NCBI RefSeq assembly: GCF_003096415.1
Contig: NZ_QEKH01000017.1
Coordinates: 1 to 64,000, forward strand
DNA from: Victivallis vadensis
Lineage (GTDB): Bacteria > Verrucomicrobiota > Lentisphaeria > Victivallales > Victivallaceae
Reading direction: 5' to 3'
Length of the DNA: 64,000 bases
Position numbers and translations under genes: made by a program. Below the pieces are notes generated by a model. That model made no database searches. It saw only the letters and a program-made list of their open reading frames with translations, and was not told the DNA's origin. Positions 30,531 to 34,407 of this stretch are shown one piece after another; position 1 is the stretch's first letter; every line of letters starts with the position of its first letter.

Positions 30531-32024
30531 TTAAAAATCCAAGGTTTTTTCCGCCATTCTCTGTCTGGCCTGTTCCTCCGCCTTACGAGCTTTTTCCAGT
30601 ACATCATCTGTTATACCGATAAAATATTTCTCCAGTATTTTATCGGTAATGGTAACTGTAATTTTACGATCTTCGCTTAATTGTATTTTCCCGGATCGTA
30701 AGGATTTTTCAATGATTTCTTTTTCATCGGCATTCAATTCGGAAACAACAAGTCCGTTTTGCTTATCCAGAAATTCGACCTCCAATTCCTGATGAACGAT
30801 TTCAATCCCGACACTTTCCGATTCCAATATATCAGTAATGTTTTTCACATTTTTTTTCATCACAATTCTGCTCGTTACAGCTTCTTCACTTAGACTATTT
30901 TTTATGCTTTGTGAATATCTAGTACCGGGAAATTCTCTGTCATATTTTTCAATCACATCCTTTGCCGTCACCCTCTCGGCAGGAAGGGTAATTCGGCATG
31001 CGACAAGTCCTCCCTTAGGTATCGCAAAATTTTTATCCGAACCCCATATGCCCCCTTCCCATTCCCGTCTGGATAATAGCGTTTCCGTTCCGAAAAAGAA
31101 TTCCACATCAGGCCAACTGAATCTTCTAAGCTGGATTCCCACATATTTCATCTTCTCGTTCGCAAAACCTACTTCGCCCTTTATTTCTCGAACAAACCAC
31201 TCCAAAGATATTCCGGAAGAAATATGTTTATAGAATTTAATATGCTGGTTTGTAATATCGGTATATGGAAACTTGAACTTTTTCTGCTCCTCCGCAAGAC
31301 GTTTTTCCTCTACAAGACGCTTTTGCTTTTCTTCTGCAAGGCGCTTTTGCTTTTCCTCTGCAAGGCGCTTTTGTTCTTCTTCCGCAAGGCGCTTTTGCTT
31401 TTCCTCTGCAAGGCGCTTTTGTTCTTCTTCCGCAAGGCGCTTTTGCTTTTCCTCTGCAAGGCGCTTTTGCCTTTCTTCCGCAAGGCGTTCCTTCTCCTTT
31501 GCAATCTCACAACTAGTTTTTATTCCTCTCAATTCCTTCTCGTCAAAATCCTGAAAACCATATTTACCGGAATCAGTCAAAATCGAATCCCGAAGTCGGG
31601 TTGCTGCTTCTCCGTACCCGGCTGTATCAAGATATCTTATATAACCTATCATGTAACCTGGACAACTACGCTTCAAAAAGGAACTGACTTTCTCAATATC
31701 CGGCGAATCGGCAACACCGGCAAAAATAACATCATAAGCTCTTAATAACAGTTCAGCTTTCTCACCTTTTCTTTCCGTCAGAATATTGGAAGCCAGTACA
31801 CATGCGGCAGGCAAATATCGGGCATATGTGGCCATCGTCAAATACTTCTCAATTTCATTTCCATGTTTTGCTCTGTTCTTTTTCAGCAATATCATCGCAA
31901 AATTATACTGCGCCTCGACATTACCGGCATCAGCTTCCTGTTTTATTTCTTCAACAGATACGCATCCGCTTAACAACACAGCAACTCCTAAAGCAAAGAT
32001 CATTCCCCTTTTTTTCATTGCCAT
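30531..32024 (-). CDS. lipoprotein with Sel1-like start and KRLAEEKQ-type helical repeats
   Basis: 497 aa. Lipoprotein signal with lipobox LLSGC (MKKRGMIFALGVAVLLSGC). Residues about 25-170 look like Sel1/TPR-type helices (ADAGNVEAQYNFAMILL). Then about 65 residues of 8-residue repeats, KRLAEEKQ/KRLAEEEQ, predicted as a long charged helix. The C-terminal ~270 residues form a globular domain I do not recognise (YTDITNQHIKFYKHISSG, ITVTITDKILEKYF). The start at 32024 has GGAAAG 5 bases upstream. Probably anchored to a membrane with the helix as spacer, as in TolA-like proteins. Base composition is AT-richer than the flanking operons. Confidence 0.75.
   Translation of the reverse strand: MAMKKRGMIFALGVAVLLSGCVSVEEIKQEADAGNVEAQYNFAMILLKKNRAKHGNEIEKYLTMATYARYLPAACVLASNILTERKGEKAELLLRAYDVIFAGVADSPDIEKVSSFLKRSCPGYMIGYIRYLDTAGYGEAATRLRDSILTDSGKYGFQDFDEKELRGIKTSCEIAKEKERLAEERQKRLAEEKQKRLAEEEQKRLAEEKQKRLAEEEQKRLAEEKQKRLAEEKQKRLVEEKRLAEEQKKFKFPYTDITNQHIKFYKHISSGISLEWFVREIKGEVGFANEKMKYVGIQLRRFSWPDVEFFFGTETLLSRREWEGGIWGSDKNFAIPKGGLVACRITLPAERVTAKDVIEKYDREFPGTRYSQSIKNSLSEEAVTSRIVMKKNVKNITDILESESVGIEIVHQELEVEFLDKQNGLVVSELNADEKEIIEKSLRSGKIQLSEDRKITVTITDKILEKYFIGITDDVLEKARKAEEQARQRMAEKTLDF
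31286..31497 (-). repeat. 24-bp tandem repeats encoding KRLAEEKQ units
   Basis: About eight units of 24 bp inside the lipoprotein gene, with alternate units ending EEKQ or EEEQ and one RLVEEK variant. The near-identity of units at DNA level makes copy number likely to vary by slippage. Confidence 0.85.
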
Positions 32025-32106
32025 CACCACTTTCCATTACCATTTTGTAAAATGACAGTCCATAAATCACATCGGAAAAATCTTTCCGCCACCGTCCGCC
32101 TCCGCG

Positions 32107-32598
32107 CTACTCCATCAACTCATGGTCGCCGTCGCGGTTGACTACACATACTTCCACGATATTCCAGATCATGATCGGAATCAACGGCAGCAGCAGCCAG
32201 CCGGTAAAAATCGTCAGCAGCAACTGGGCTGTTCCGCGTCCATTATAACCGGCATAAAAATTATGGGCGCCCCAGATCCCAAGAAAAATTCCAAGCAGTA
32301 TATAGGTAGTCCTCTTTTTGCGTACATGAAATACGTTCAGTTGTTCCATCGGATAAGAAGACGCGGAAACCGCTCCATTCATCGTCACGGGAACAGGATT
32401 GCCGGCCGCCGTACTGCCCGGTTTTGCTTTTTCCAATTCCTGCTGATATTTGTCTTTCAACTCCTCCGCCAGCCGAAGCGTAACATCAATCGTTTCGCCA
32501 CAGAACCTGCACTTTTTAGCACGGATACTGATTTTTTCCGCACAAAACGGACACTCTTTCCACTCTCTTGTCGAACTCTCTTCCGGTAATTCAGCCAT
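32107..32598 (-). CDS. zinc-ribbon and TM2-domain membrane protein
   Basis: 163 aa. A double zinc ribbon near the N-terminus (CPFCAEKISIRAKKCRFC), a charged helix, then a TM2 domain of two membrane helices (YILLGIFLGIWGAHNFYAGY and ...LLLTIFTGWLLLPLIPIMIW). AGGAGG 5 bases before the ATG at 32598 decides the start; the longer frame would begin at a TTG without a ribosome binding site. Next to another TM2 protein and a lipoprotein, in an envelope-protein group. TM2 proteins have no settled role in bacteria. Confidence 0.8.
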   Translation of the reverse strand: MAELPEESSTREWKECPFCAEKISIRAKKCRFCGETIDVTLRLAEELKDKYQQELEKAKPGSTAAGNPVPVTMNGAVSASSYPMEQLNVFHVRKKRTTYILLGIFLGIWGAHNFYAGYNGRGTAQLLLTIFTGWLLLPLIPIMIWNIVEVCVVNRDGDHELME

Positions 32599-32679
32599 CA
32601 TAGCCTCCTGATGCGCCCTCTGATTCATCGCTTTCACAGCCTCGAACGGACAATAGCCCGAAGCTGTAATTTTTTTCAA

Positions 32680-32991
32680 TTAATTCTGCAGTTTTAATGC
32701 TTGAGAAATTTCAAGTGCCAATTTTCTGTTGTATTCATCAGTCCGTTCCATAGCAGTGAACAGATCAATGAGCCACCAGATTCCCAGCCCTCCAGTAGTC
32801 AATATTTTCAAGATTCCCAATCCGATCTGTCCAAGATAGATACGGTCAAGTCCCCCAGTAAAGAATGCCAGAATAAAAGTCAATCCACGATTTTTCAGAC
32901 GCTGTCGCAGCTGGTTCTGAAACATCGCTTTTTGCGGTTCGGTCATCCCCTGCTGCAGACTCAACAATTCCATCATACTGATCTTTGCCAT
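32680..32991 (-). CDS. TM2-domain membrane protein
   Basis: 103 aa. A cytoplasmic N-terminal helix (EPQKAMFQNQLRQRLKN) and the TM2 core FFTGGLDRIYLGQIGLGILK followed by GLGIWWLIDLFTAMERTDEY. The typical Gly-x-His of TM2 is replaced by Gly-x-Asp (GGLDRIYLG). GGGAAAAATAG lies before the ATG. It is 81 bp upstream of the zinc-ribbon TM2 gene and about 105 bp downstream of one copy of the RNA-like repeat (33096-33328). Confidence 0.82.
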   Translation of the reverse strand: MAKISMMELLSLQQGMTEPQKAMFQNQLRQRLKNRGLTFILAFFTGGLDRIYLGQIGLGILKILTTGGLGIWWLIDLFTAMERTDEYNRKLALEISQALKLQN

Positions 32992-33095: not shown

Positions 33096-33328
33096 GCATA
33101 AAAAAGCATGCGTTTTCGCTGTTGTTTACCGATTACTTGAAATTCAAGAACCATACACAGCAGAAAACAGCATGCTCAATCCACAGAATATGAGTATACC
33201 GCATCCGGCCTGCCCGTTCTTCACTGAAAAGCTGCAAGTTTTTCGATAAAAAAGCGACCGACAAAAAATTTCAGTTTTCAACAGTTCACAATAATTTCAG
33301 CAGCAATATCCTCCTTTTTCCGGTTTTA
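33096..33328 (-). ncRNA. RNA-like repeat element, copy A
   Basis: 233 bp, homologous to 34025-34259 in the same orientation. The conserved core on the minus strand is GTCGCTTTTTTATCGAAAAA followed by CTTGCA. The 3' end is a long hairpin (outer arms AGCATGC/GCATGCT, inner GTTTT/AAAAC and GCTGT/ACAGC) followed by TTTTTT. Both copies lie upstream of a minus-strand gene. The type (leader RNA, small RNA or dispersed hairpin repeat) is not decided; short peptides readable through it (LSKNLQ...) diverge by frame and are probably incidental. Confidence 0.5.
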
Positions 33329-33346
33329 CAACTGCAAACGCATGGC

Positions 33347-33988
33347 TTACGCCTGCAAACGGTTCAGTTTTTCAACGGCCGCCTTGAAACATGAGGCCAA
33401 TCCGCCGATTTTTGCATTGGGGTGATAAAAACGGAAAGCCAGACACCGGCCATCCAGACGGCAGTAATCCGTCCCGGAACAATTTTCCACCGGCAGCCCG
33501 CCCATGACGTCACAAAACAGGTCAAACACCTGATTGCCGCAACAGGCAAAGCAGGTGGGTTTGTCCAGATAAAGCCGGATCTGTTCTTTCAGGAATTCCC
33601 TGTCTGCCATGACGGCGGCGTGCAACGCACCGTACCGGGTGATTGCCCCTCCCGTTGTTTTCTTCAGGTTCATCACGGCGACCGGCAGTAAAACTCTTTT
33701 CCGTTCCTCTTCCGGCGCAAAATTGATTTCACGGCCGCGAACCGCGGAAACCCATCTTGCCATCGGAGCGAATGTATGCCCACCGTTTTTCGGGCTGCCG
33801 GCTTCGATGAAACTGCGCAGGTCAAATCCCGGCGCGCAGTCATCCACTTCCTTCAGCACAAAGACCAATCTGGGAAGTGGAGAAGCATCAAAGGCCGCTT
33901 CATTCACGACGCCGTCCGCAATAAACTGTTCTCCATACTTCCGTTTCCATTCCCGGAAAAGATTCTCTTCCCGCCGTTCCATTGCCAT
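33347..33988 (-). CDS. uncharacterised protein, possibly of the uracil-DNA glycosylase fold
   Basis: 213 aa, cytoplasmic. Segments LPRLVFVLKEVDD, DLRSFI, MARWVSAV, NLKKTTGG and FRFYHPNAK follow the order seen in proteins of the uracil-DNA glycosylase superfamily (a first strand with a catalytic loop and a late HPxx motif). I cannot confirm this without a profile search. Of three nearby ATGs, the one at 33988 has AAAGGA 6 bases upstream. The gene is bracketed by two direct copies of an RNA-like repeat and is AT-richer than the flanking operons, which suggests acquired DNA. Confidence 0.55.
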   Translation of the reverse strand: MAMERREENLFREWKRKYGEQFIADGVVNEAAFDASPLPRLVFVLKEVDDCAPGFDLRSFIEAGSPKNGGHTFAPMARWVSAVRGREINFAPEEERKRVLLPVAVMNLKKTTGGAITRYGALHAAVMADREFLKEQIRLYLDKPTCFACCGNQVFDLFCDVMGGLPVENCSGTDYCRLDGRCLAFRFYHPNAKIGGLASCFKAAVEKLNRLQA

Positions 33989-34024
33989 TTTCATTCCTTT
34001 CCCTGAGTTTCAGTTTTGCAAGCT

Positions 34025-34259
34025 GCATAAAAAAAGAGCACGCGCTTTCACCATGCTCATCGAAGGTACTTGCAAACCCGGAAGAACCACGGCCAAAAAC
34101 ACGTGCTCATTCCATAAGGTATGAGAACGTCGGATTCGGCTCGCCTGTTCTTCTCCAAAAAAGGTTGCAAGTTTTTCGATAAGAAAGCGACCAATAAAAT
34201 TTTAATACTCAGTAATTTCCAACAGTACTGCCAATAATCATTCCTTTTTCTGTTTTTAT
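34025..34259 (-). ncRNA. RNA-like repeat element, copy B
   Basis: 235 bp, homologous to 33096-33328. The minus-strand core is GTCGCTTTCTTATCGAAAAA followed by CTTGCA. The 3' hairpin has arms GAGCACG/CGTGCTC, where copy A has AGCATGC/GCATGCT; both arms changed together, which supports RNA pairing. TTTTTTT follows, then 36 bases to the start codon of the UDG-like gene. The stretch 34260-34407 downstream of it holds only a short GGCC hairpin and no gene. Confidence 0.5.
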
Positions 34260-34407
34260 CGCCGGCCTTTATGCGGCCATTTATAAAACATACCATCCAT
34301 TCAAGGAATATACAAATGAAACTCTGAAATTTTACGGTCCAGGCTCAATTCCGAGTTTACAAGTACCTGATCTGATACCGCTTTGTATCTTCCCATGCCG
34401 GAAATGT

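Follow-up and report, generated by a model that had tools for sequence, protein, structure and literature searches.

Direct repeats of Victivallis vadensis belong to an apparently undescribed family of two-state RNAs in Verrucomicrobiota, probably transcription attenuators

We find that two direct repeats in Victivallis vadensis belong to what is apparently an undescribed RNA family, a device of a known kind with an unusual architecture and setting. The elements probably work in cis as 5′ leader RNAs, attenuating transcription of the genes behind them. The family shows very strong covariation, has multiple copies in many Verrucomicrobiota genomes, and is absent from Rfam 15. Positions below are those of the window, the whole stretch of 64,000 nucleotides that was analysed.

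Two copies of one element bracket a UDG-like gene

The two direct copies described in the original prediction were both recovered at their predicted positions, 932 nt apart and flanking ORF 33347-33994. The copies, named A and B, match at 71% identity over about 175 nt (blastn, E 1e-13), and they share a 40-nt block at 88% identity; a MAFFT alignment of the two was also made. A match of this kind goes far beyond chance, as independent copies from other genomes can be aligned along their whole length. The predicted arms AGCATGC/GCATGCT (A) and GAGCACG/CGTGCTC (B) are present, each copy ends in a run of 6-7 T on the minus strand, and a minus-strand ORF follows each: the 215-aa ORF 33994-33347 behind B and the TM2 gene 32991-32680 behind A. 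The copies and their downstream (cargo) genes are as follows.

~34024-34262, minus strand: leader RNA copy B, whole, including the 5′ segment with AAAAAGGA; covariance-model match 34032-34198
33100-33330, minus strand: leader RNA copy A, degenerate; covariance-model match 33100-33265
33347-33994, minus strand: cargo of leader B, 215 aa, distantly UDG-superfamily-like; start about 35 nt past the T-run
32680-32991, minus strand: cargo of leader A, a small membrane protein with a TM2 domain (PF05154, E 6.9e-14)
32107-32679, minus strand: second cargo of leader A, zinc-ribbon plus TM2 (PF05154; UPF0547 below cut-off)

With covariance model R2, copy B scores 137.8 bits (E 1.4e-25 in its own genome) and copy A 109.9 bits; these scores are partly so by construction, as both copies are in the training alignments, and most later hits lie outside the training set. 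Just upstream of copy B, at 34349-34368 on the plus strand, TTCCGAGTTTACAAGTACCT resembles the X′-b′ segment of the leader in inverted orientation; this inverted repeat is perhaps the remnant of a third leader copy.

Compensatory changes support an RNA structure

The elements had been proposed to be structured RNA, and the aligned copies bear this out. The central feature is a long-range helix, P2. Across 80 distinct copies, 98.3% of P2 cells are paired against 31-47% in slid controls; alignments built with a P2 model lean towards P2, which is partly met by an unfitted, structure-independent MAFFT alignment of 12 copies, where P2 is 95.8% paired against 23-47% after sliding. Double-change cells number 547 in the 80 copies, compared with 148 after shuffling, and all 20 P2 pairs show compensatory changes. 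G-U cells outnumber A-C cells 40 to 7, which identifies the window's minus strand as the RNA strand. A protein-coding explanation was rejected: no reading frame stays open throughout, 43 of the 80 copies being interrupted by stops in every one of the six frames, and the changes track base pairs. The original prediction had named two findings that would speak against it, a lack of compensatory changes and a conserved ORF, and on each of these points the copies speak for an RNA.

Four further helices accompany P2. The arms of P1 have a median score of 19.6 in the 80 copies, compared with 13.2 for swapped partners, and the terminator stem P4, scored in the region between the P2 strands plus the tail, reaches 33.6 compared with 19.9, where the P values of these swapped-partner comparisons ignore the relatedness of the copies. 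P3 and P4 share sequence in 80 of 80 copies, the former's 3′ arm overlapping the latter's 5′ arm. In P5, GGGY before segment b′ covaries with RCC after it (T with A, C with G). The P1 loop contains the 5′ strand of P2 and the terminator loop its 3′ strand. The arms of the predicted 3′ hairpin stand, and its description as a plain hairpin does not: they close a terminator that carries the 3′ strand of long-range helix P2 as its loop, and P3 offers the 5′ arm an alternative partner. Minimum-energy folds also extended P2 outwards into the 3′ arm of the terminator, but this extension was dropped as unsupported by swapped-partner controls (13.7 observed, 13.4 swapped). The parts of both copies, all on the minus strand, are listed below.

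34181-34192, minus strand: B, P1 5′ arm (P1 compared with swapped partners in 80 copies)
34138-34155, minus strand: B, P1 3′ arm, overlapping X
34147-34180, minus strand: B, P2 5′ strand, with segments a, b and X (covariation in 80 copies)
34180-34176, 34172-34165 and 34153-34147, minus strand: B, a = ATCGA, b = ACTTGCAA and X = GAAGAAC
34106-34125, minus strand: B, P3 hairpin core CTCATACC..GGAATGAG, whose 3′ arm doubles as the terminator 5′ arm
34090-34116, minus strand: B, 5′ arm of terminator P4, including GAGCACG at 34108-34102
34059-34087, minus strand: B, P2 3′ strand, with X′, GGGT, b′, ACC and a′ in order
34087-34081, 34075-34068 and 34063-34059, minus strand: B, X′ = GTTCTTC, b′ = TTGCAAGT and a′ = TCGAT
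Around b′, minus strand: B, P5, formed by GGGT/ACC (GGGY/RCC covariation)
34029-34056, minus strand: B, 3′ arm of terminator P4, with CGTGCTC at 34042-34036, then a 7-T run at 34035-34029
33128-33152, minus strand: A, decayed P2 3′ strand GGTTCTTGAATTTCAAGTAATCGGT
33100-33111, minus strand: A, terminator 3′ arm GCATGCT plus a 6-T run; the 5′ arm AGCATGC lies at 33176-33170

The helices suggest two alternative states

A P2 of about 20 bp with almost no linker should, on geometric rather than calculated grounds, be unable to coexist with P1 or P4. Two states would follow, one with P1, P4 and P5 (terminated) and one with P2 and P3 (read-through). Their computed energies are near-equal, with a median difference of 2.2 kcal/mol; these are minimum-free-energy estimates that leave tertiary contacts aside. 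When P2 is forbidden in the computed folds, the terminator forms in 94% of copies; with the 3′ arm of the terminator still to be transcribed, 97% fold into P2.

The proposed switch would operate as follows. From a promoter, a 5′ segment of 60-100 nt would be transcribed, and the RNA would then take one of two exclusive folds. In the OFF fold, P1 would keep strand a-b-X in its loop and P4 would form with X′-P5(b′)-a′ in its own, and RNA polymerase would stop behind terminator P4 at the U-run. In the ON fold, a-b-X would pair with X′-b′-a′ as P2 while P3 sequesters the terminator's 5′ arm, and the polymerase, meeting a U-run with no hairpin ahead of it, would read into the cargo gene. Because b and b′ are displayed in the loops of P1 and P5, switching probably begins as a loop-loop contact. 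Two loops, complementary over about 20 nt, that choose between terminator and antiterminator would make a compact and directly testable design.

Copy B looks intact, with every helix complete and both states forming in the computed folds, and as a leader it would govern the UDG-like gene. In copy A, P5 and most P2 pairing are gone and X/X′ pairing is weakened; its minimum-energy structure has no P2 pairs and consists of P1 and the terminator only. With the ON state lost, leader A would now act as a plain terminator before the TM2 and zinc-ribbon genes.

The leader recurs before same-strand genes across the phylum

Copy B, used as a DNA query, retrieved the same element in other Lentisphaerota, where all copies carry ATCGAAAAACTTGCAACC towards their 5′ side and, about 100 nt away, GGGTTTGCAAGTACCTTCGAT towards their 3′ side; a promoter-like sequence precedes them and a gene follows. 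Full-length copies were found in 18 of 78 genomes of the source family and 27 of 198 genomes of the source class with a covariance model of P2 only. A second covariance model, trained on 28 hits from the P2-only searches, gave copies in 55 of 388 genomes drawn evenly across the phylum, some of them outside the class. The element had been called dispersed, and indeed carrier genomes hold 1-8 copies each; a more sensitive pass counted four in the present genome, two on the contig of the window (C17) and one each at C2:95164-95314 and C50:14483-14627.

The next ORF shares the strand of the leader in 59 of 78 cases and is mostly found 20-130 nt past the T-run; several of the opposite-strand ORFs in this count stem from a crude gene-calling method. 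Genes on the upstream side have no clear strand bias (46/35). This position before same-strand genes fits a cis-acting attenuator. Two features expected of such a device are present, namely an intrinsic terminator before a co-directional gene and a conserved antiterminator that shares strands with the terminator (P3/P4 in all 80 copies, P2 through covariation). Collectively, the aligned sequences and computed folds establish helices P1-P5, their shared strands, the near-equal energies, the strand and the place before same-strand genes, and from these we infer that termination does occur and that the leader controls the gene behind it.

A promoter-like site precedes the core in 49% of copies (15% when shuffled) and an SD-like motif in 60% (19% when shuffled); at copies A and B themselves, no convincing consensus promoter was found. 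By eye, short ORFs follow the SD-like motif in some copies and are absent from others. With no universal leader ORF, a peptide-based trigger is unsupported as a general rule. Copies in the family-35 genus, L122 among them, repeatedly show a hairpin of the type CCGTGG-GAAAG-CCACGG directly after the promoter-like sequence, at the place where many other copies have SD-like AAAGGAGG; a GNRA-capped 5′ hairpin proposed for family-35 copies failed a direct check. In one group, a divergent ECF-type sigma factor and a Ser/Thr kinase lie upstream of the leader, at six loci (L044, L045, L046, L047, L048 and L050), and other kinases occur at four (L058, L059, L061 and L064).

The same features bear on a reading in which the element is a free-standing small RNA that acts in trans, with its own promoter and terminator, and in which loops b and b′, being exposed, find their partners in different transcripts or in further copies of the RNA, much like the antisense control known from plasmids. 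We regard this as unlikely. The promoter-like sites and the strong terminator are compatible with it, b and b′ are kissing-competent, and some genomes hold several copies with the same b, one (G053) three with ACTTGCAA. However, in the family-35 group b often differs among copies of one genome, the strand sharing of P3 and P4 has no obvious use in a plain small RNA, and the consistent same-strand gene right behind the element, with cargo exchange exactly there (see below), fits a leader better.

Cargo genes turn over behind the leader

The protein encoded behind leader B has no Pfam match itself, and its two distant relatives in one genome (G082) match PF03167 weakly (E 0.028 and 0.21). A single-sequence AlphaFold model of the UDG-like protein reached a pLDDT of 41, too poor to use. 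Among 100 genomes, a single other one yielded relatives of this enclosed gene, which are 28-30% identical to it. The zinc-ribbon/TM2 type of cargo recurs behind leader copies elsewhere, where the downstream genes encode zinc-ribbon, TM2, Sel1, lipoprotein and membrane proteins as well as a GmrSD enzyme, a glycosyltransferase and PEP-CTERM proteins. As these genes have no common function, the ligand or signal cannot be read off from them. Further downstream in the window, 24-bp coding repeats (KQKRLAEE type) at 31279-31511 lie inside ORF 30531-32030, which is lipoprotein-like with a Sel1-like N-terminus and has no Pfam match.

Homology between similar loci ends 0-9 nt past the T-run (the modelled end) in 74 of 111 pairs, which are not independent and of which several come from fragmented assemblies; in one pair, the loci are 99% identical over 2.5 kb and then carry different cargo. 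Such a break right behind the T-run indicates that cargo turns over behind a kept leader. Leader-proximal insertions (L161 against L169 and L172 against L173) carry no new leader copy. Three genomes of the genus retain the adjacent Gfo/Idh genes and have no leader-cargo block; an exact empty site was rejected, as the other flank in these relatives is not syntenic. A second leader-gene-leader array was seen at L188 5056-5937 (G016:C80), behind an ATPase gene that is DUF4143-like in appearance.

The element had further been predicted to mobilise or duplicate the gene that it encloses. This part was not supported: cargo is exchanged behind the leader, but inserted cargo brings no leader, relatives of the enclosed gene are narrow in occurrence, and there was no integron integrase (TIGR02249) match over the cut-off in six carrier genomes. 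In a related reading, the hairpin acts at the DNA level, like an attC or REP element, as a site of recombination or insertion through which genes are captured or moved, and the RNA fold is secondary. The sharp homology break and the leader-gene-leader arrays in this window and in G016 would suit it; against this, the excess of G-U over A-C cells marks selection on one RNA strand, a recombination site needs no two alternative folds, and the insertions without a leader and the missing integrase count here as well, so that we consider it highly improbable. Integron attC sites and cassette arrays share with the leader an imperfect intergenic hairpin, leader-gene-leader arrays and cargo exchange behind a fixed element, but differ from it in the one-sided RNA selection, the terminator U-run, the cargo without an element copy and the absence of an integron integrase found here. 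No attC R-box core sites (RYYYAAC/GTTRRRY) were seen by eye in copies A or B.

Comparison with known RNA families and attenuators

No description of this RNA was found in the open papers searched, and Rfam 15 covariance-model scans returned nothing significant on the element, either in the window region up to E 5, in the whole window at gathering scores, or at 28 loci carrying copies up to E 0.1. Acido-Lenti-1 (RF01687), which the original prediction had suggested, is like the present element a structured RNA from Lentisphaerae and has been listed as probably not cis-regulatory (PMC2864571); it had no match in any of these scans, of the window or the 28 loci, and the identity was rejected on that ground. 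A phage origin was also set aside, the one strict, exact pattern that was searched being absent from IMG/VR. Among the loci, L033 2399-2646, behind a leader copy, has several spurious miRNA matches that are probably simple repeats, and L129 10480-10752 (minus strand) carries group II intron RNA (RF02001, RF01998) about 5 kb from a leader copy.

The element resembles attenuating leaders and riboswitch platforms in being a 5′ leader with an intrinsic terminator, an exclusive antiterminator and shared strands. It differs from them in its antiterminator, a helix of about 20 bp that spans the entire element and whose 3′ strand lies within the loop of the terminator, in having no recognisable aptamer, no site for tRNA binding and no universal leader peptide, and in downstream genes without a common function. 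A small-molecule riboswitch, in which P1 and its loop would be the aptamer of an attenuator built in the same way, appears very doubtful: the two-state platform with a terminator and the conserved AAA/CUUU frame around b are in its favour, but paired letters drift freely, few unpaired letters are fixed (near-invariant unpaired bases are only the short AAA and CUUU framing b, in contrast to a typical metabolite aptamer), and the downstream genes have no metabolic theme.

In the plasmid antisense attenuators pT181, pIP501 and ColE1 RNA I/II, a loop-loop contact grows into an extended duplex that decides between alternative folds, much as proposed for the cis-acting leader. In the present element, by contrast, the two loops belong to a single RNA; no antisense gene was identified, and copies across the genome precede a variety of genes as their leaders.

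A broader and improbable idea is that the leader serves as a phylum-wide capture platform, in which acquired accessory genes would be joined exactly behind the U-run of a default-off RNA switch. If true, this would be an RNA-level counterpart of integron promoters and of foreign-gene silencing. The leader, lying at the junction between fixed flanks and fast-changing accessory genes, offers a handle on how newly gained genes are controlled, a matter that concerns both gut and environmental Verrucomicrobiota.
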